Shown: in pieces, positions 18,569 through 26,783 of the stretch
Layout of the letters: every line of letters begins with the position of its first letter
Numbering within the stretch: position 1 is the stretch's first letter
The notes under the pieces: generated by a model
Database searches by the model: none
Told to the model about the DNA's origin: nothing
The model's input: the letters and a program-made list of their open reading frames with translations, nothing else
Program-made: the position numbers and the translations under genes
From: an uncultured Desulfobacteraceae bacterium
Lineage (GTDB): Bacteria; Desulfobacterota; Desulfobacteria; Desulfobacterales; Desulfatirhabdiaceae
DNA: 64,000 nt
Direction of reading: 5' to 3'
NCBI GenBank assembly: GCA_903953895.1
Contig: CAJBLH010000065.1
Location: forward strand, 1-64,000

Positions 18569-20851
18569 TTATGGTATGTCATCATATCCACTCACCAGGA
18601 CTTCACGGGCCTTGACGCCATCGGACGGCCCGATGACCCCTTCCTTTTCCATGGTTTCGATGATGCGGGCCGCCCGGTTATAACCGATGCGAAGATGCCG
18701 CTGCACCATCGAAATGGATGCCTGGCGGGTTTTGGTTACCAGAGCGACTGCATCGTCATAGCGATCGTCATGGTCTTCGGCCGAAGATCCATTTTCTTCC
18801 TCGGTGATGGCTTCCGTAATCATGGTATCGTATTCAGGCGGTTTCTGTTCTTTCAGGAATTCGATGATCCGGTTCAGCTCTTCTTCGGAGATATAGGCGC
18901 CGTGAATGCGCTGAAGCTTGGCGGTTCCCGGCGGCAGCAGCAGCATGTCGCCGTTTCCCAGAAGCGCTTCGGCGCCATTGGAATCGATGATGGTCCGGGA
19001 GTCGGTTCGGGAAGAGACCTGAAATGACAGGCGGGTGGGAAAATTGGCTTTGATGATGCCAGTCAGAACATCCACCGACGGCCGCTGTGTCGCCAGAATC
19101 AGATGGATTCCCGAAGCCCTGGCCATTTGCGCCAGCCGGGTCAGGGCCACTTCCACATCCCGCGATGCCACCATCATCAGATCCGCCAGCTCATCGATGA
19201 TGATGACGATCAAAGGCAGTTTATCGGGCTTGACGCCGTCGGGGCCGGGTTTGGCCTTTTCCATCTTCTGGTTGAACTGGGTGATGTTTCGGGCCTTGTG
19301 ATCCGAAAGCAGTTGATAGCGTCGCTCCATTTCCCGGACGGCCCAGAACAGGGCATTGGTGGCCTTCTTGACGTCCGTCACCACCGGTGTAATCAGATGG
19401 GAAATGCCGTCATACAAGGAAAGTTCGATGCGTTTGGGATCGATCATGATCAGCTTGACCTGATCCGGCGTAGACTTGTACAGGAGGCTGCAGATCATGG
19501 CGTTCAACCCGACACTTTTTCCGGTTCCGGTGGCGCCGGCGATCAGCAGATGGGGCATTCGGTCCAGCTCGGCCACCACGGGATTTCCCACAATGTCCTT
19601 TCCCATGCAAAGAGTCAGGCAGGAGCGGGATTTTTCAAAGGCAGGGGAGACGACAATTTCTTTGAACCGGACGATCTGGCGATCGTTATTGGGAATTTCG
19701 ATGCCGATCACGGCCTTTCCGGGAATCGGTGCTACGATGCGGATACTCAAAGCTTTCAGCGCCAGAGACAGATCGTCTGCCAGATTGACGATTTTATTGA
19801 TTTTAACCCCGGGTGCGGGTTCATATTCGAATGTTGTGATCACCGGGCCGGGAGAAATGGCGGTTACCGCGCCCTTGACATTGAAGTCCTCAAGGGTTTT
19901 TTCAAGCAGCCTGGCCTGCGACTGAAGGTGTTCCGTATCATACTGAGAGGTCCGGGGTTCCGGATCATCCAGAAACGAAACCGACGGCAGCGAAAATCCG
20001 TCTGATCTTTTCGCCGATTCACCCTTTATGGGAAGTGTTTCCTGAATCGTTTCAACAACAGATTTCATCTCAACGACAGTCTTCATCTCAACAACAGGTT
20101 TCATCTCAACGGCAGGCTTCATCTCAACAACAGGTTTCGGCTCAACAACAGGCTTCATCTCAACAACAGGTTTCGGCTCAACAACAGGCTGCGGCGGAGA
20201 AATCGCCAGGGAAGGCGGATCAACGGGTTGAGCCTTGGCTGGCTTGGGGTGTTTTTTGATGGATTCTTTTTTCAGGGGCTCCTTGAGTAGACGTTCTGGC
20301 TTGGGCTCAGCAGGTTTTCGGGAGAAAACGAATCGGATGGCCACCCAGAAATGTCCGGCAAAGCCGACCAGAGAAAAACCGGTCGTCAGGATCAGACCGA
20401 TGATCCACAACAGAAACAGGATGACCAGCGACCCGGAGATATTGGTATAGGCGATCAGAAACCGGTGAAAGTAAAGCCCGATCCGACCGCCCGATGGAAA
20501 TGCGCTTCCCCAGATCAGGATGTAATTATCCCGGAAAGAGACTAGGCTGCCGGTGGTAATGGCCAGAATCAAGCCGCCGGCGATGGTAACGGCAATGGTG
20601 GTTCTGGGTCTGGCATTGAAAAAATGAATGCTCGATATCAGCAGTAATATCGGAATCCAGTAAGCTCCCAACCCGAACAGACCGATTAATTGGCCTGCAG
20701 CCGTTGCGCCGACATATCCGAAAAAATTGCGGCTGCTGCCGTTGGCGCCCGGATGATGAAAGAACGCATCTTTTGGATCGAATGAAAACAGGCTGGACAG
20801 GGTGAATATGACCAGAAAAAAAAGCAGGATGCCGATCAGTTCTTTTCGCAT
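18569..20851 (-). CDS. ftsK: DNA translocase FtsK/SpoIIIE
   Basis: Septum-located DNA pump that clears and resolves chromosome termini at division. The 760-residue protein has four N-terminal TM segments (to about residue 170). A Pro-Lys-rich linker (about 175-300) includes a run of hexapeptide repeats of the form PVVEMK at about 216-271. The RecA-like motor has Walker A AGATGTGKSVGLNAM and Walker B LIVIIIDELADLMM. The C-terminal gamma winged helix (YDDAVALVTKTRQASISMVQ, RRLRIG-like region) should read KOPS/SRL sequences. Complete and of ordinary length. A hairpin with a U-run sits just before its start codon. Confidence 0.96.
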   Translation of the reverse strand: MRKELIGILLFFLVIFTLSSLFSFDPKDAFFHHPGANGSSRNFFGYVGATAAGQLIGLFGLGAYWIPILLLISSIHFFNARPRTTIAVTIAGGLILAITTGSLVSFRDNYILIWGSAFPSGGRIGLYFHRFLIAYTNISGSLVILFLLWIIGLILTTGFSLVGFAGHFWVAIRFVFSRKPAEPKPERLLKEPLKKESIKKHPKPAKAQPVDPPSLAISPPQPVVEPKPVVEMKPVVEPKPVVEMKPAVEMKPVVEMKTVVEMKSVVETIQETLPIKGESAKRSDGFSLPSVSFLDDPEPRTSQYDTEHLQSQARLLEKTLEDFNVKGAVTAISPGPVITTFEYEPAPGVKINKIVNLADDLSLALKALSIRIVAPIPGKAVIGIEIPNNDRQIVRFKEIVVSPAFEKSRSCLTLCMGKDIVGNPVVAELDRMPHLLIAGATGTGKSVGLNAMICSLLYKSTPDQVKLIMIDPKRIELSLYDGISHLITPVVTDVKKATNALFWAVREMERRYQLLSDHKARNITQFNQKMEKAKPGPDGVKPDKLPLIVIIIDELADLMMVASRDVEVALTRLAQMARASGIHLILATQRPSVDVLTGIIKANFPTRLSFQVSSRTDSRTIIDSNGAEALLGNGDMLLLPPGTAKLQRIHGAYISEEELNRIIEFLKEQKPPEYDTMITEAITEEENGSSAEDHDDRYDDAVALVTKTRQASISMVQRHLRIGYNRAARIIETMEKEGVIGPSDGVKAREVLVSGYDDIP
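20040..20205 (-). repeat. 18-bp tandem repeats within ftsK linker
   Basis: About nine imperfect copies of an 18-bp unit encode successive hexapeptides such as PVVEPK, PVVEMK, PAVEMK and TVVEMK in the FtsK linker. Read on the plus strand the unit resembles CAGGTTTCATCTCAACAA. Copies differ at single bases, and array length is likely to vary between strains by slippage. In-frame unit length keeps the protein intact. Confidence 0.85.
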
Positions 20852-20859
20852 GAACTCCC

Positions 20860-20886
20860 AAAAAAATAAGCCTGATGAATCAGGCT
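20860..20886 (-). terminator. Rho-independent terminator between the 125-aa gene and ftsK
   Basis: On the minus strand AGCCTGA and TCAGGCT (20886-20880 and 20875-20869) form a 7-bp stem with a 4-base loop, followed by TTA and a T-run to about 20860. It follows the gene ending at 20927 but ends only 9 bp before the ftsK start. It may therefore act as an attenuator for ftsK. Confidence 0.65.
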
Positions 20887-20926
20887 GTTAAATTACCAGT
20901 TAGACGAGCACAAATCCCGCAGAAAG

Positions 20927-21304
20927 TCATTTTGCCCGATTTGTGCTGTTGGGCAATGTGCCATACATCCCGTGAGATCGATCTATAAAGAGTTTTAATC
21001 CGATTCCCTTGGCAATGATTCTTCTCAGCTCATCGGGCGCGACACTGAAAGCCTCGTCCAATATTTCAACGCCATTGTCTCCGGCTTTAAGAAACTCTAC
21101 ATCATAGCGCTCCGGGAATTCCCGGATAATATGAACATAAGAAACCTCTTTTGGGTTTTTTTTAACTTTGATCGACAACGTTCGCACACCTTCGATAACA
21201 TGTTTTGCACCGATCATCCCAAAGAATTCTTTTCCACCCAACAGCTTATAAATCAATTTTGGTGCTGAAATTTCTCCAGTTTCCATATTCGCATCAGACC
21301 ACAT
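20927..21304 (-). CDS. Conserved-looking small protein of unknown function
   Basis: A 125-residue soluble protein that I do not recognise. GAGG lies 8 bp before the ATG at 21304, and codon use matches its neighbours, which favours a real gene. It is predicted mixed alpha/beta (KHVIEGVRTLSIKVKKNPKE, VSYVHIIREFPERYDVEFLKAG) with no TM segment or metal motif. The stop overlaps one arm of an inverted repeat (AGCACAAATC ... GATTTGTGCT, 20909-20945). A stronger hairpin with a U-run follows at 20860-20886. It lies upstream of ftsK and divergent from the antitoxin/R-M operon; the context gives no clear role. Confidence 0.6.
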   Translation of the reverse strand: MWSDANMETGEISAPKLIYKLLGGKEFFGMIGAKHVIEGVRTLSIKVKKNPKEVSYVHIIREFPERYDVEFLKAGDNGVEILDEAFSVAPDELRRIIAKGIGLKLFIDRSHGMYGTLPNSTNRAK

Positions 21305-21426
21305 AAAATGAACCTCTTCCTCCCGGCGGTTGTTTGTTTTCTCATCGTATTTCCACTATGATCAATGTTCCGATTATACAAAACCCTTCATCAGAAGCAA
21401 ACCTTTTCCGTCCGAAGATATTCTTA

Positions 21427-21455
21427 TTGACACAACATGTTGAAATTAATACAAA
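21427..21455 (+). promoter_or_regulatory. Candidate promoter P1 of the antitoxin/R-M operon with internal palindrome
   Basis: TTGACA (21427-21432) and TACAAA (21450-21455) lie 17 bp apart, a perfect -35 box and a 4-of-6 -10 box. The spacer begins with the perfect 10-bp palindrome CAACATGTTG (21433-21442), placed as an operator would be. Confidence 0.5.
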
Positions 21456-21509
21456 GTGATCGATAATGCCTGGCCCTTTCTCGCATACCCATCCCTGACC
21501 CGTTCTGTA

Positions 21510-21538
21510 TTGACAACGTAAATCTTTTAAAATACGCT
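21510..21538 (+). promoter_or_regulatory. Candidate promoter P2 of the antitoxin/R-M operon
   Basis: TTGACA (21510-21515) is followed after 17 bp by TACGCT (21533-21538), a perfect -35 box with a poor -10 box. The antitoxin start codon lies 40 bp further on, after GGAGG. Either this or P1 may be the main promoter. Confidence 0.35.
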
Positions 21539-21577
21539 GTCATACAATGATCTGTTTATATCACAGGAGGGTCGATC

Positions 21578-21832
21578 ATGTCGAAGAATGCATGTTTAAA
21601 TATCAGAACGACTGAGGAAATCAAAAAAGGGGCAGAGGTGATCCTGGGTGGACTCGGGTTGAACATCTCCACCGCCGTGAATCTTTTTCTCAAACAGGTT
21701 ATCAACTATAATGGCATTCCTTTTGATCTGCGACTGCCCAACCTGGAAACCCGGCAAGCGATGGAGGATATCGAGAACCGCCGTAATATGGAAAATGAAA
21801 CCCCATGTTCGAACAAACCTTTAAAAAAATAG
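21578..21832 (+). CDS. RelB/DinJ-family antitoxin-like protein leading the R-M operon
   Basis: Small ribbon-helix-helix protein of 84 residues. The N-terminal part (LNIRTTEEIKKGAEVILGGLGLNISTAV split over residues 7-34, then NLFLKQVINYNGIPFDL) matches the DinJ/RelB DNA-binding and dimer domain. Family members normally follow this with a toxin-binding tail and a yafQ/relE toxin gene. Here the tail after NLETRQAMEDIENRRNMEN is short and unlike the family, and no toxin follows. The last 28 bases overlap hsdM in another frame, so the two are translationally linked. GGAGG lies 8 bp before the ATG. It may regulate the R-M operon; that is inference. Confidence 0.85.
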   Translation: MSKNACLNIRTTEEIKKGAEVILGGLGLNISTAVNLFLKQVINYNGIPFDLRLPNLETRQAMEDIENRRNMENETPCSNKPLKK

Positions 21833-23259
21833 ACGATGTCCTCTGGAAAGAAGCCGGCTGCACCACCGAGCTGGATTACACCGAGCAAAGCTCCTGGCTG
21901 CTGTTTCTGAAATATCTCGACGAACTGGAACGGGATAAGACCATGGAGGCCGAGCTGGAGGGGAAAAAATACACCTTCATCCTCGACCCCCCCTACCGGT
22001 GGGAAAGCTGGGCAGCCCCGAAAAACGGTGACGGCAAGCTCGACCACAACAAAGCTCTGAGCGGAGACGATCTGCGGGATTTCGTGAACTTAAAGCTGTT
22101 CCCGTATCTGCACGGTTTCAAGCTGAAGGCCAATGGGCCGAATACCATCGAATACAAAATCGGGGAAATCTTCGGAGAGATACAGAACAAGATTTCAAGC
22201 GGATACAACCTGCGCGAAATCATCGATCATATCGATGAACTGCATTTCCGGTCTCAGACCGAAAAACATGAACTGTCCCATCTCTATGAAGCCAAGATCA
22301 AAAACATGGGCAACGCCGGCAGAAACGGCGGAGAATATTACACCCCGCGTCCGTTGATCCGCGCCATTGTGCAGGTAGTCAATCCAAAGATCGGCGAACG
22401 CATTTACGATGGGGCTGTAGGCTCCGCCGGCTTTTTGTGCGAAGCCTTCGTTTATCTCAAGTCTCAACCGCAACTGACGACCGACGACCTGATCACGCTG
22501 CAGGAAAAGACCTTTTACGGTAAAGAAAAGAAATCCCTGGCCTACGTGATCGCCACCATGAATATGATCCTGCACGGCATCGAGGCTCCCAACATTATTC
22601 ACACCAACACGCTGACCGAAAACCTTGCCGACGTTCAGGAAAAGGATCGCTTCGATGTCATCCTGGCCAATCCGCCTTTCGGCGGCAAGGAACGCAAAGA
22701 AGTTCAGCAGAATTTTCCCATCCGAACCGGCGAAACGGCGTTTCTGTTTTTGCAGCATTTCATCAAAATGCTCAGGGCCGGCGGACGGGCCGGTGTGGTT
22801 ATCAAGAATACTTTCCTGTCCAACACCGACAACGCCTCAACGAGCTTACGAAAGCTTTTACTGGAAAGCTGCAACCTGCACACGGTACTTGACTGCCCTG
22901 GTGGAACCTTTCTTGGTGCTGGAGTAAAAACCGTAGTGCTGTTCTTTGAGAAGGGATCGCCGACACGCAAGGTCTGGTTCTACCAGCTCGACCCTGGCAG
23001 AAATATGGGTAAGACCAATTCACTGAATGATACCGATCTGGCTGAATTCATCGAATTACAAAGGACCAAAGCTGACTCTCCCAAAAGCTGGAGCGTGGAC
23101 GTTACAACCATTGATCCGGCAACCTTCGATCTCTCAACGAAGAATCCAAACGGCGGCGAAGAAATAATCCACCGCAGCACGCAAGCGATCATGGACGAAA
23201 TTGCTGCACTGGATGCGGAAAGTGCCAAAGTGCTTGCGAACATCAGGGCGTTGATATGA
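21805..23259 (+). CDS. hsdM: Type I restriction-modification methyltransferase subunit HsdM
   Basis: Adenine-N6 methyltransferase subunit that, with HsdS, protects host DNA and, with HsdR, forms the restriction complex. The 484-residue protein has the HsdM N-terminal helical domain (TELDYTEQSSWLLFLKYLDELE), YTPRPLIRAIV, SAM motif I DGAVGSAGFL (about residues 202-211) and the catalytic NPPF at about residues 289-292 (VILANPPFGG). Size matches type IB enzymes. The start lies within the antitoxin gene and the stop overlaps hsdS by four bases (ATGA). The recognition sequence is set by HsdS and cannot be read here. Confidence 0.96.
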   Translation: MFEQTFKKIDDVLWKEAGCTTELDYTEQSSWLLFLKYLDELERDKTMEAELEGKKYTFILDPPYRWESWAAPKNGDGKLDHNKALSGDDLRDFVNLKLFPYLHGFKLKANGPNTIEYKIGEIFGEIQNKISSGYNLREIIDHIDELHFRSQTEKHELSHLYEAKIKNMGNAGRNGGEYYTPRPLIRAIVQVVNPKIGERIYDGAVGSAGFLCEAFVYLKSQPQLTTDDLITLQEKTFYGKEKKSLAYVIATMNMILHGIEAPNIIHTNTLTENLADVQEKDRFDVILANPPFGGKERKEVQQNFPIRTGETAFLFLQHFIKMLRAGGRAGVVIKNTFLSNTDNASTSLRKLLLESCNLHTVLDCPGGTFLGAGVKTVVLFFEKGSPTRKVWFYQLDPGRNMGKTNSLNDTDLAEFIELQRTKADSPKSWSVDVTTIDPATFDLSTKNPNGGEEIIHRSTQAIMDEIAALDAESAKVLANIRALI

Positions 23260-24377
23260 AGGCGGGGTGGAAGACAAAACCTTTTGAGGAGTGCACCCAA
23301 AAGATAACCTATACACCGAAGGTTCAGAGAAAAGATTTTTTGAATGACGGCACATATCCTATTATTTCTCAAGAGGAACACTTTATTAACGGGTATTGGA
23401 ACAATGAAGCAGATATTTTCAAAGTTACTACTCCCGTCATTATATTCGGTGACCATACTAAGGTTTTGAAGTACATCGATTTCGATTTTGTACTCGGTGC
23501 AGACGGAGTGAAGGTTTTGCAGCCAAAAGAGTTTCTCGTACCCAAGTTCTTCTTTTATCAGTTGCATGCCACAAATCTTGAGTCCCTTGGGTATGCCCGT
23601 CACTACAAGCTGCTAAAAGAACTTGATATTATATTTCCACCGCTCCCCGAACAGCAGCGCATCGTCGGCATCCTTGACGAAGCATTTGAAGGCATTGCCG
23701 TTGCTAAAGCGAATGCCGAAAGAAACCTTCAAAACGCCCGTACTTTGTTTAAAAGCTATCTGCAATCTGTTTTTGCCAAAAACGGCAAGGGGTGGATAGT
23801 CAGAACAATTGGAGAAGTTTGTACGCTCAGAAGCGGAACGACTGTCGGCGCAGCTCTTGAAAAATCGGCTGGTGATCTGCCATATCTTAAAGTTGCCGAC
23901 ATGGCACATGCTGGAAACGAAATTGAAATCTTCAGCTCTTCTCGGTTTCTGGATACAACTGATATCGGGAAAAATGCTGTGCTGCCTTCCGGAGCAACTA
24001 TATTTCCAAAACGAGGCGGATCGATTCTGACAAACAAAAAGCGACTGACAGCCGTACCCATTTGCGCTGACCTGAACATCATGGGAGTCATTCCGGGAAA
24101 GAACATACTTCCGAAGTTTTTATATTTTTATTTCTTGAATGTAGATATGCGTCAAATTGGCAGTGGTTCATCCATTCCGCAGATCAATAATTACGATATT
24201 GAACCGCTTGCTATCTCTTTTCCTGAATCCGTTGATCAGCAAGCAGAAATCGTGTGCATATTTGAGAAACTGTCCACCGAAACCCAACACCTCGAATCCA
24301 TCTACCAACAAAAACTCACCGCCCTGGAAGAACTGAAAAAATCCCTCCTACACCAAGCCTTCACCGGTCAACTTTAA
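23256..24377 (+). CDS. hsdS: Type I restriction-modification specificity subunit HsdS
   Basis: DNA-recognition subunit of 373 residues. It has two target-recognition domains (about 1-125 and 180-320), each followed by a helical conserved region: LPEQQRIVGILDEAFEGIAV (starting near residue 130) and, at the C-terminus, VDQQAEIVCIFEKLSTETQH to SLLHQAFTGQL. This gives a complete bipartite specificity protein. The base composition is more A+T-rich than hsdM and hsdR in the first TRD, as is common for horizontally exchanged specificity domains. Translation is coupled to hsdM by a four-base overlap. Only one hsdS and no inverted partner genes are present, so phase variation by inversion is not indicated. 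Confidence 0.95.
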   Translation: MKAGWKTKPFEECTQKITYTPKVQRKDFLNDGTYPIISQEEHFINGYWNNEADIFKVTTPVIIFGDHTKVLKYIDFDFVLGADGVKVLQPKEFLVPKFFFYQLHATNLESLGYARHYKLLKELDIIFPPLPEQQRIVGILDEAFEGIAVAKANAERNLQNARTLFKSYLQSVFAKNGKGWIVRTIGEVCTLRSGTTVGAALEKSAGDLPYLKVADMAHAGNEIEIFSSSRFLDTTDIGKNAVLPSGATIFPKRGGSILTNKKRLTAVPICADLNIMGVIPGKNILPKFLYFYFLNVDMRQIGSGSSIPQINNYDIEPLAISFPESVDQQAEIVCIFEKLSTETQHLESIYQQKLTALEELKKSLLHQAFTGQL

Positions 24378-24386
24378 GGACATGCC

Positions 24387-26783
24387 ATGAACGAAGCCGA
24401 AACCAGAGCCGAACACATCGACCCCGCCCTTGCTGCGGCGGGCTGGGGAGTGGTTGATGGCAGCCGCATCCGGCGGGAGTATCCGATCACGATGGGGCGG
24501 ATTGAAGGCAGCGGCAAGCGGGGCAAGGCGCTGACGGCCGATTACATTCTGGAGTATCGCAATACGAAACTGGCGGTGGTCGAGGCCAAAGCCTGGAACA
24601 AGCCGCTGACAGAGGGCGTCGGGCAGGCAAAGGATTATGCGGCCAAGCTGGCCGTTCGCTTTGCGTATGCCACCAACGGGCAGGGCATCTACGGCATCGA
24701 CATGCAGACCGGCACGGAAGGCGAGCTGCCCCAATATCCGACGCCGGATGAATTATGGAACCAGACATTTGCCGTCCAAAACGCCTGGCGGGATCGCTTT
24801 GCCAAGGTGCCGTTCGAGGATCGGGGCGGGTATTTTCAGGGGCGATATTACCAGGACATTGCCGTCGAGCGCGTGCTGACAGCGATAGCCGAGCAGAAGA
24901 GTCGCATCCTTCTGACGCTGGCGACCGGTACGGGCAAAACCTTCATCGCTTTTCAAATCGCCTGGAAACTGTTTTACAGCCGCTGGAACTTGACCGACTG
25001 GCAGACGGAAAACGAGCCCAGCCGTCGGCCCCGCATCCTGTTTCTGGCAGACCGAAACATTCTAGCAGACCAGGCCTACAACGCCTTTTCCGCCTTTGCC
25101 GAAGATGCGCTTGTCCGCATCTCTCCGGATGACATCCGCAAAAAGGGGAGGGTGCCAAAGAACGGCAGTATCTTTTTTACCATTTTTCAGACATTCATGA
25201 GCGGCCCTTTGCAAGACGGTCACCCCAGCCCGTATTTCGGGGAGTATCCGCCGGACTTTTTCGATTTCATCATTATCGACGAGTGCCACCGGGGCGGGGC
25301 CAATGATGAAAGCAACTGGCGCGGTATTCTCGATTATCTTTCCCCGGCGGTTCAACTGGGTCTGACGGCAACCCCGAGACGCAAGGACAATGTTGACACC
25401 TACGCCTATTTCGGTGATCCGGTGTATATTTATTCGCTGAAAGACGGTATCAACGACGGATTTTTAACCCCGTTTCGGGTCAAGCAGATTTCAACAACTC
25501 TGGATGAATATGTCTATACGCCGGACGACACCCTGGTTGAAGGCGAGATCGAAATCGGCAAGATTTATGATGAAGATGATTTCAACAAGATCATCGAGAT
25601 TATCCCCCGGGAAAAGAAGCGGGTCGAAATCTTCATGTCGCAGATCGACCCGAACCAGAAATCATTGGTCTTCTGCGCTAGCCAGTCGCACGCGCTGGCG
25701 GTGCGGGACATCGTCAATCAGCTCAAACCTGGCAGCAATCCGAATTACTGCCAACGGGTAACGGCCAACGACGGCGCACTGGGCGAGCAGCACTTGCGGG
25801 ATTTTCAGGACAACGAAAAAACCATCCCCACCATCTTGACCACATCGCAAAAGCTTTCTACCGGCGTGGATGCCCGCAATGTGCGAAACATCATCCTGAT
25901 GCGGCCGATCCATTCGATGATCGAATTCAAGCAGATCATCGGACGCGGCACGCGGCTTTACGACGGAAAAGACTACTTCACGATTTATGATTTCGTAAAG
26001 GCGCACCATCATTTCAGTGATCCGGAGTGGGACGGAGAACCGATGGAACCGGAAGCTTGCGAAAATTGTGGATGCTATCCGTGCCAATGCCAAATGGAAT
26101 CCCCGCTGCTATGTCCGGTCTGCGGCAAACATCCCTGCATGTGTAATAAGGAGCCTGTCTCTGAATTCAGAGAAGACCTCTCTCCTTTCAAAACAAAAGC
26201 CATCATCAAACTGGCCGACGGCAAGGAGCGCACCATTCAGCACATGACGGTCACCAGCTTCTGGCATCCGGACGGTACGCCGATGTCCGCCCAGCAGTTT
26301 ATGGAAGCCCTCTTTGGCAAGCTGCCGGCTTTTTTCCAGAATGAAGAAGAACTTCGCACCTTGTGGAGTGTGCCGGACACCCGCCGGAAATTATTGGAGG
26401 GGCTGTCTGAAAAAGGCTTTGGCAAGGATCAACTGACCGAAATGCAGAAAATCATCGATGCGGAGAAAAGTGATCTGTTCGATGTTCTATCACATGTGGC
26501 CTATGCGCGGGCGCCTCTGACCCGTGAAGAACGGGCCGAAAAAGCCAAAATCATTATCAGCACGCACTTTAACAGCAGACAGCAGATTTTTCTTTCTTTC
26601 GTGCTGTCCCATTATGTCAGCGTCGGTGTCGAAGAACTGGATCAATCCAAATTGACACCGCTGCTTCGGCTGAAATATCATGGCTCGATTTCCGATGCGG
26701 TTGCGGATCTGGGCCGTCCGGATGAAATCGGCCATGTGTTCTGCGGGTTTCAGAAATACCTGTATCAGCAGGAGGCGGCATAA
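24387..26783 (+). CDS. hsdR: Type I restriction endonuclease subunit HsdR (EcoEI-like)
   Basis: ATP-dependent translocase and nuclease subunit, 798 residues, close to the shorter type IB HsdR size. The nuclease core is ADYILEYR to VVEAKAW with Asp52, Glu66 and Lys68 as the D-ExK site. The SF2 helicase follows: ATGTGKT (about 179-185), DECHRGG (about 298-304), GLTATPRRKDNVDTY, and motif VI-like IIGRGTRLYDGKDYF. After the helicase comes an unusual Cys-rich stretch with nine cysteines (about residues 557-588), then the HsdR C-terminal helical domain. It starts 9 bp after hsdS. The R-M operon M-S-R appears complete and intact. Confidence 0.95.
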   Translation: MNEAETRAEHIDPALAAAGWGVVDGSRIRREYPITMGRIEGSGKRGKALTADYILEYRNTKLAVVEAKAWNKPLTEGVGQAKDYAAKLAVRFAYATNGQGIYGIDMQTGTEGELPQYPTPDELWNQTFAVQNAWRDRFAKVPFEDRGGYFQGRYYQDIAVERVLTAIAEQKSRILLTLATGTGKTFIAFQIAWKLFYSRWNLTDWQTENEPSRRPRILFLADRNILADQAYNAFSAFAEDALVRISPDDIRKKGRVPKNGSIFFTIFQTFMSGPLQDGHPSPYFGEYPPDFFDFIIIDECHRGGANDESNWRGILDYLSPAVQLGLTATPRRKDNVDTYAYFGDPVYIYSLKDGINDGFLTPFRVKQISTTLDEYVYTPDDTLVEGEIEIGKIYDEDDFNKIIEIIPREKKRVEIFMSQIDPNQKSLVFCASQSHALAVRDIVNQLKPGSNPNYCQRVTANDGALGEQHLRDFQDNEKTIPTILTTSQKLSTGVDARNVRNIILMRPIHSMIEFKQIIGRGTRLYDGKDYFTIYDFVKAHHHFSDPEWDGEPMEPEACENCGCYPCQCQMESPLLCPVCGKHPCMCNKEPVSEFREDLSPFKTKAIIKLADGKERTIQHMTVTSFWHPDGTPMSAQQFMEALFGKLPAFFQNEEELRTLWSVPDTRRKLLEGLSEKGFGKDQLTEMQKIIDAEKSDLFDVLSHVAYARAPLTREERAEKAKIIISTHFNSRQQIFLSFVLSHYVSVGVEELDQSKLTPLLRLKYHGSISDAVADLGRPDEIGHVFCGFQKYLYQQEAA

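Follow-up and report, generated by a model that had tools for sequence, protein, structure and literature searches.

The gene at 21578-21832 (plus strand) of the window, i.e. of the whole stretch of 64,000 nt that was analysed, encodes an antitoxin of the RelB/DinJ family which is without a toxin, has its last ~12-14 codons replaced, and stands at the head of a type I restriction-modification (R-M) operon. Alignment with the relatives on either side indicates that the locus is a chimera, which lacks the toxin and, of the antitoxin, just the last ~12-14 codons. Probably a relB-yafQ pair lost its toxin and these codons when an EcoAI-type hsdMSR joined it, and the promoter and the antitoxin were captured by the operon.

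Gene content of the locus

The 84-aa product of 21578-21832 exceeded the curated cut-offs of two family profiles, TIGR02384 of NCBIfam (78.9 bits, cut-off 45.65, E 2.5e-22, profile positions 1-75 of 85) and PF04221 of Pfam (55.4 bits, cut-off 22.4, E 5.7e-15), which assigns it to the RelB/DinJ family; PDB chains named DinJ were also matched. The matches in Pfam, NCBIfam and PADLOC were to RelB/ParD-type families only, and the helix-turn-helix (HTH) that marks C proteins was not among them. A strong candidate Shine-Dalgarno sequence, AGGAGGG, precedes the gene at 21565..21571 (plus strand). The initial annotation had described an intact DNA-binding domain, and the ribbon-helix-helix (RHH) part does appear complete, as judged from the sequence alone; a single-sequence AlphaFold model of the protein (mean pLDDT 50) was too poor for use. 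The statement that no yafQ or relE gene follows was borne out in the window, where tblastn with the toxin of L094 gave a best E of 0.28 for a YafQ-like toxin gene and a toxin profile of 7 sequences gave zero matches; the adjacent cognate toxin gene of a type II toxin-antitoxin system was thus not found. Solitary antitoxins are reported as a recognised class of antitoxin genes without a linked toxin (PMC3874152).

Directly behind relB lies a compact operon of the EcoAI type, in agreement with the annotation of relB as its first gene. It comprises hsdM for the type I DNA methyltransferase subunit (21805..23259), whose start region is common to its relatives, hsdS for the specificity subunit (23256..24377, overlapping hsdM by 4 nt) and hsdR for a restriction subunit of the EcoAI/FtnUII family (24387..26783, 9 nt after hsdS; NF046051, E 1.4e-242, 807 bits), all on the plus strand. 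The three frames are open and near-contiguous, as in type I R-M systems of the EcoAI family, and PADLOC type I models matched HsdM, HsdS and HsdR. A gene of 125 aa at 20927-21304 (minus strand), between ftsK and relB, had no Pfam, NCBIfam or PADLOC match; two relatives of it were seen, one at C187 of the own genome and another, carrying a stop codon, in G007. No tRNA was found in the window.

Descent of the antitoxin and position of the junction

RelB relatives were sought in 395 genomes of the phylum of the window, and the five best outside its own genome (L094-L098) showed 72-76% identity to the window RelB over residues 1-74. All five sit in relB-yafQ loci. The toxin is an open YafQ-type frame of 91 aa with a 4-nt overlap with relB in L094 and L098; the same frame is interrupted by an internal stop in L096, and only its last 48 residues are left, by internal deletion, in L095 and L097. 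Plasmids gave RelB in 381 records and phages in 33, every one below 60% identity, and the 35 pattern matches to RelB relatives in viral contigs yielded 0 confirmed cases. The relB-yafQ relatives have the same promoter element and antitoxin, but not the downstream part, and descent from the antitoxin of a toxin-antitoxin pair, as had been suggested at the outset, is well supported by these alignments. Retention of relB with a broken toxin, and with no R-M operon behind it, was seen in three of the five close relatives (L095, L096, L097), i.e. keeping of the antitoxin after toxin loss recurs in this relB family in loci without R-M genes.

The junction zone between relB and hsdM was placed by alignment at 21787..21804 (plus strand), where the DNA identity to the relB relatives in 30-nt windows drops from 0.70-0.73 (21758-21787) to 0.23-0.30 (21788-21817). 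The similarity spans the promoter element and relB to about codon 72 and ends 11-17 nt before hsdM; in profile and alignments, homology with complete antitoxins reaches residue ~72-75 of ~85-86. Since homology to the relatives extends to ~21787 and none is seen beyond, the window protein is without the last ~12-14 residues only. The toxin-binding tail had been described as replaced by sequence reading into hsdM, which holds for these residues and not for the whole tail (homology to ~72-74 of ~86). The RelE-binding region of E. coli RelB is reported as residues 50-79 (PMC3507626), so that the window RelB would retain part of such a region, the C-terminal toxin-binding region of RelB/DinJ being incomplete. 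The relB-hsdM junction is known from one genome.

The comparison of window relB with the five relatives over 72 codons gave dN of 0.15-0.19. A dS value was obtained for just two of the pairs, 3.04 and 1.85 (dN/dS 0.05 and 0.10), the remaining pairs being saturated. Codon comparison thus indicates that the RelB protein is conserved across the combined branches; with dS high or saturated, this selection cannot be dated relative to the fusion. The region upstream of relB has a GC content of 0.40, the values for relB, hsdM, hsdS and hsdR being 0.45, 0.51, 0.43 and 0.54, and the difference of relB and its upstream region from hsdM and hsdR speaks for a chimera. The hsdS gene is AT-rich like relB, and therefore composition does not separate the two parts cleanly; the pattern is compatible with a composite origin, short of proof.

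Elsewhere in the own genome, a second RelB-family gene (C88:8901-9098; L002 1480-1749, minus strand) encodes 89 aa, matches the profile to position 73 of 85 and has no neighbouring match to the YafQ family. A pair of closely similar YafQ-like genes lies at C105:9693-9950 and C57:4308-4550; for both the sequence ends ~120-135 nt upstream, presumably at contig ends, which puts the antitoxin genes out of view. A YafQ-like toxin gene at C209:42504-42767 (L198) follows a gene of 87 aa that is not RelB-like and is possibly a different antitoxin partner.

Upstream region of relB

An operator-like pseudo-palindrome, CTGTATTGACAA, at 21505..21516 (plus strand) overlaps the predicted -35 and recurs in the five relB relatives with the sequence TTGT(A/G)TTGACAA; the form (C/T)TGT(A/G)TTGACAA is common to all six sequences (window and L094-L098) upstream of relB. 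The conserved promoter element TTGTATTGACAA resembles a half-site of relO. In E. coli, relO is reported to hold four hexads in two adjacent half-sites, TTGTAATGACAT and TTGTAATTACAA, with the hexad core [A/T]TGT[A/C]A (PMC2812701). The window element carries one exact hexad of this type (TTGTCA, minus strand), which is the one occurrence over the 273 nt that precede relB. Given a window-wide rate of 1.7 per kb, the hexad by itself is within chance, and what speaks for it is the conservation of its position. The shared element may also have been conserved as a -35 instead of an operator.

The predicted relB promoter, which would be inherited, occupies 21510..21538 (plus strand), with the -35 TTGACA at 21510-21515, a spacing of 17 nt and the -10 TACGCT at 21533-21538 (3/6 to consensus). 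The 17-nt spacing is also present in the five relatives, whose -10 sequences are TACAGC, TACAAT, TACATT, TACATT and TACATT (L094-L098 in order), scoring 3, 5, 4, 4 and 4 of 6. The initial annotation had placed promoter and operator at 21427-21455. The promoter-like stretch TTGACA-17-TACAAA does exist there (plus strand), with the palindrome CAACATGTTG at 21433-21442, and scores 10/12 against 9/12 for the inherited relB promoter, but nothing in the five relatives could be aligned with it and the conserved element is the one at 21505-21516. The consensus promoter scan listed a single site (TTGAAA-16-GATAAT at 21440) where 1.0 would be expected, which is chance level, and the relB promoter was not listed. 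Rfam families gave zero matches at 20800-22000.

Initiation of hsdM

The hsdM gene starts at 21805 inside relB, and the overlap of 28 nt counts the relB stop codon. No Shine-Dalgarno sequence was found before this start, and the same test gave the same result for 50 of 79 relatives (79 of the 80 were compared, L075 being left out as its match begins at residue 9). The predicted accessibility around the start was 0.61, higher than in 71 of the 79 relatives (mean 0.49), and hence nothing indicates a start that is masked until relB is translated. Of the translational linkage proposed by the initial annotation, the overlap is a fact; the coupling itself is something that we infer from it.

The relB gene could act as a translational coupler, i.e. 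initiation at the hsdM start, which is without a Shine-Dalgarno sequence, would require the translation of relB. Besides the overlap and this missing sequence, such a role is favoured by type II systems with C proteins, in which overlaps of ~20 nt are reported as common and the C and R genes of Esp1396I as translationally coupled (PMC2997769). Against it stand the absence of the sequence before 50 of the 79 related hsdM starts as well and the high accessibility, and the C and R genes of PvuII are reported to be translated independently (PMC2997769). Reinitiation is also described as dropping sharply with the stop-start distance, overlaps of 4 and 1 nt being by far the commonest among coupled-type pairs (PMC10666635). 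Taken together, a coupling role is possible and rather doubtful.

Occurrence in related genomes and plasmids

In all, 116 related hsdM loci were scanned with a RelB profile of 11 relatives and with the toxin profile of 7 sequences. These comprised 80 loci from GTDB genomes (those ranking highest among 563 confirmed stretches, with best segments 81-88% identical to HsdM), 29 from the phylum search (30 minus the own locus of the window), 6 from viral contigs and the congener locus L218. The upstream DNA per locus varied up to 4 kb and was below 260 nt in L016, L024 and L050; the loci are partly non-independent, L038 and L044 having identical leaders, and the collections may share species. RelB ahead of hsdM was found in 0 of the 116 loci by the RelB profile, and the toxin profile had no match in them either. 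The RelB profile was likewise negative on loci L219-L222 and on 8 plasmid loci, which were taken from 54 plasmid records matching HsdM. The annotation had itself proposed a search for the DinJ-hsdMSR arrangement in other genomes and counted a lack of conservation as one of two signs against its reading; as far as searched, the congener included, the arrangement is not conserved. The recurrent linkage to type I R-M genes that characterises RptR was accordingly not seen here, with 0 of 116 loci.

The 395-genome set contained RelB/DinJ in 85 genomes and HsdM (E <= 1e-40, with at most four candidates scored per genome) in 90; when the two tables were compared by eye, the two genes adjoined in the own genome only. 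The distance between them is ~4 kb in G037, where they lie on opposite strands, and ~100 kb in G034. The hsdM of the congener G005 has 88% identity over residues 1-343, where the match stops at the contig end, and is without RelB; its start lies 50 nt after the stop of another, long open frame. No clean empty site was found in the family, the flanking ftsK cluster and histidine-kinase pair differing in context among the relatives examined. In plasmid L210 the hsdM gene is preceded, at a distance of 90 nt, by an RHH gene that follows an AAA-family ATPase gene, with a terminator-like hairpin between the RHH gene and hsdM (by eye); this RHH gene matches PF20605 and not RelB. In the titles and abstract beginnings of the open-licence papers retrieved, no hsdMSR operon led by a RelB/DinJ gene is described. 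With the arrangement seen in a single genome, accident is the default reading and regulation a testable extra.

Relation to described systems

The window gene has in common with E. coli DinJ-YafQ, RelBE and L. paracasei DinJ-YafQ the TIGR02384/PF04221 family, the RHH region, the position of the antitoxin as first gene of the operon and a promoter element resembling a relO half-site. It differs from these systems by having no toxin gene, by the replacement of its last ~12-14 residues and by hsdM as the next gene.

RptR, reported as a 79-aa repressor that heads type I R-M operons, has four alpha helices and binds TAGCTA (PMC12255303). Like the window gene it is a small first cistron of such an operon, for which autorepression of the operon promoter is proposed. 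RptR recurs, 54 of 117 homologues being reported beside type I R-M genes (PMC12255303), whereas the window gene encodes an RHH-family antitoxin seen once, and the two are set apart by the reported fold. C proteins such as C.PvuII resemble the window in having a small regulator gene whose end runs tens of nt into the next R-M gene (PMC2997769). They are described as lambda cI-type HTH-like regulators that precede the endonuclease gene (PMC12255303), whereas the window relB precedes the methyltransferase gene.

Toxin-antitoxin genes joined with type I R-M genes were also observed among the plasmid loci, where HicA lies between hsdM and hsdS in L214, and PIN/VapC genes lie behind hsdS in L210 and L216. 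These three operons contain toxin genes, placed between or after the hsd genes, whereas the window has a lone antitoxin at the operon head. DarTG2 in EPEC represents toxin-antitoxin genes inside a type I R-M operon. The plasmid hsdM is in three loci found behind a ParA-family (L213, L217) or AAA-family (L210) ATPase gene and a small gene (the RHH gene of PF20605 in L210), and this partition/R-M neighbourhood of L210, L213 and L217 is possibly recurring.

Alternative explanations

The most likely explanation is that promoter and antitoxin were captured specifically in this lineage, with residual autorepression possible. Homology on both sides shows that the EcoAI-type hsdMSR cassette became attached after relB codon ~72, at a point ~11-17 nt ahead of the hsdM start codon, probably in a single fusion event, whose direction and mechanism we infer. 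The operon would then be transcribed from the inherited relB promoter, with the relB ribosome-binding site ahead, and the truncated RelB may, as a dimer, occupy the conserved half-site that covers the -35 and so reduce the transcription of relB-hsdMSR. This reading is argued against by the weak -10 (3/6) and by one exact hexad against four in relO. Two forms of the fusion can be distinguished, both being sub-cases of it. The relB gene may be a leftover first cistron that gives promoter and leader, has no regulatory role and will decay. In line with this, the relB-hsdM arrangement was found nowhere else in the loci and genomes searched, the broken toxins of three of the five closest relatives occur with relB and no R-M operon, and the own genome holds a second RelB gene without an adjacent YafQ; the intact frame and ribosome-binding site of relB and the mainly synonymous codon differences from its relatives speak against it. 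Such a passive role is plausible and falls somewhat short of being probable. As the initial annotation proposed, with C proteins as its parallel, the truncated RelB may instead have been selected as an autorepressor by which hsdMSR expression is limited or delayed, an effect also comparable with that of RptR. The retained promoter and half-site element, the conserved RHH part and the strong ribosome-binding site of relB are consistent with this, and so are the reported repression of the own promoter by DinJ alone in L. paracasei (PMC9592637), the reported binding of RelB dimers to relO without RelE (PMC2812701) and the precedent of RptR for small repressors at the head of type I R-M operons (PMC12255303). 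However, none of the 116 related hsdM loci shares the arrangement, the congener also being without RelB, the -10 is weak, and part of the C-terminus is missing, which E. coli RelB reportedly requires for the association of its dimers (PMC2812701). A selected repressor is on balance rather unlikely, and the lack of a second case favours a passive leader or a young regulator.

A stronger version would have the antitoxin turned into a dedicated autorepressor of the type I R-M operon in one step, with the toxin removed, the tail trimmed and operator, promoter and DNA-binding domain kept, so that loss of RelB under stress or phage attack, expected if the protein is as protease-labile as E. coli RelB, would raise restriction; this is quite unlikely. 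The solitary RelB could also neutralise in trans another YafQ of the own genome, which has three YafQ-like toxins elsewhere, two of them with no partner gene visible before the sequence ends ~120-135 nt upstream. The third, however, has its own upstream gene, which is not RelB-like, and the region equivalent to the reported RelE-binding residues 50-79 of E. coli RelB is truncated (PMC3507626), making this role most improbable. An assembly chimera of two unrelated sequences would suit a draft genome in 315 contigs and a junction seen once. It is highly unlikely given a junction just ahead of a start codon with both frames open, on a contig of 109.6 kb whose left ftsK cluster and right histidine-kinase/regulator pair have counterparts in congeners.

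Conclusion

If RelB has no repressing effect at this locus, the operon is an ordinary case of promoter capture and toxin loss. If the truncated RelB still represses, the locus would be a snapshot of an R-M operon acquiring a built-in regulator by a single recombination step. The autoregulation of antitoxins would then be linked to the control of type I restriction, for which RptR is the closest precedent found.
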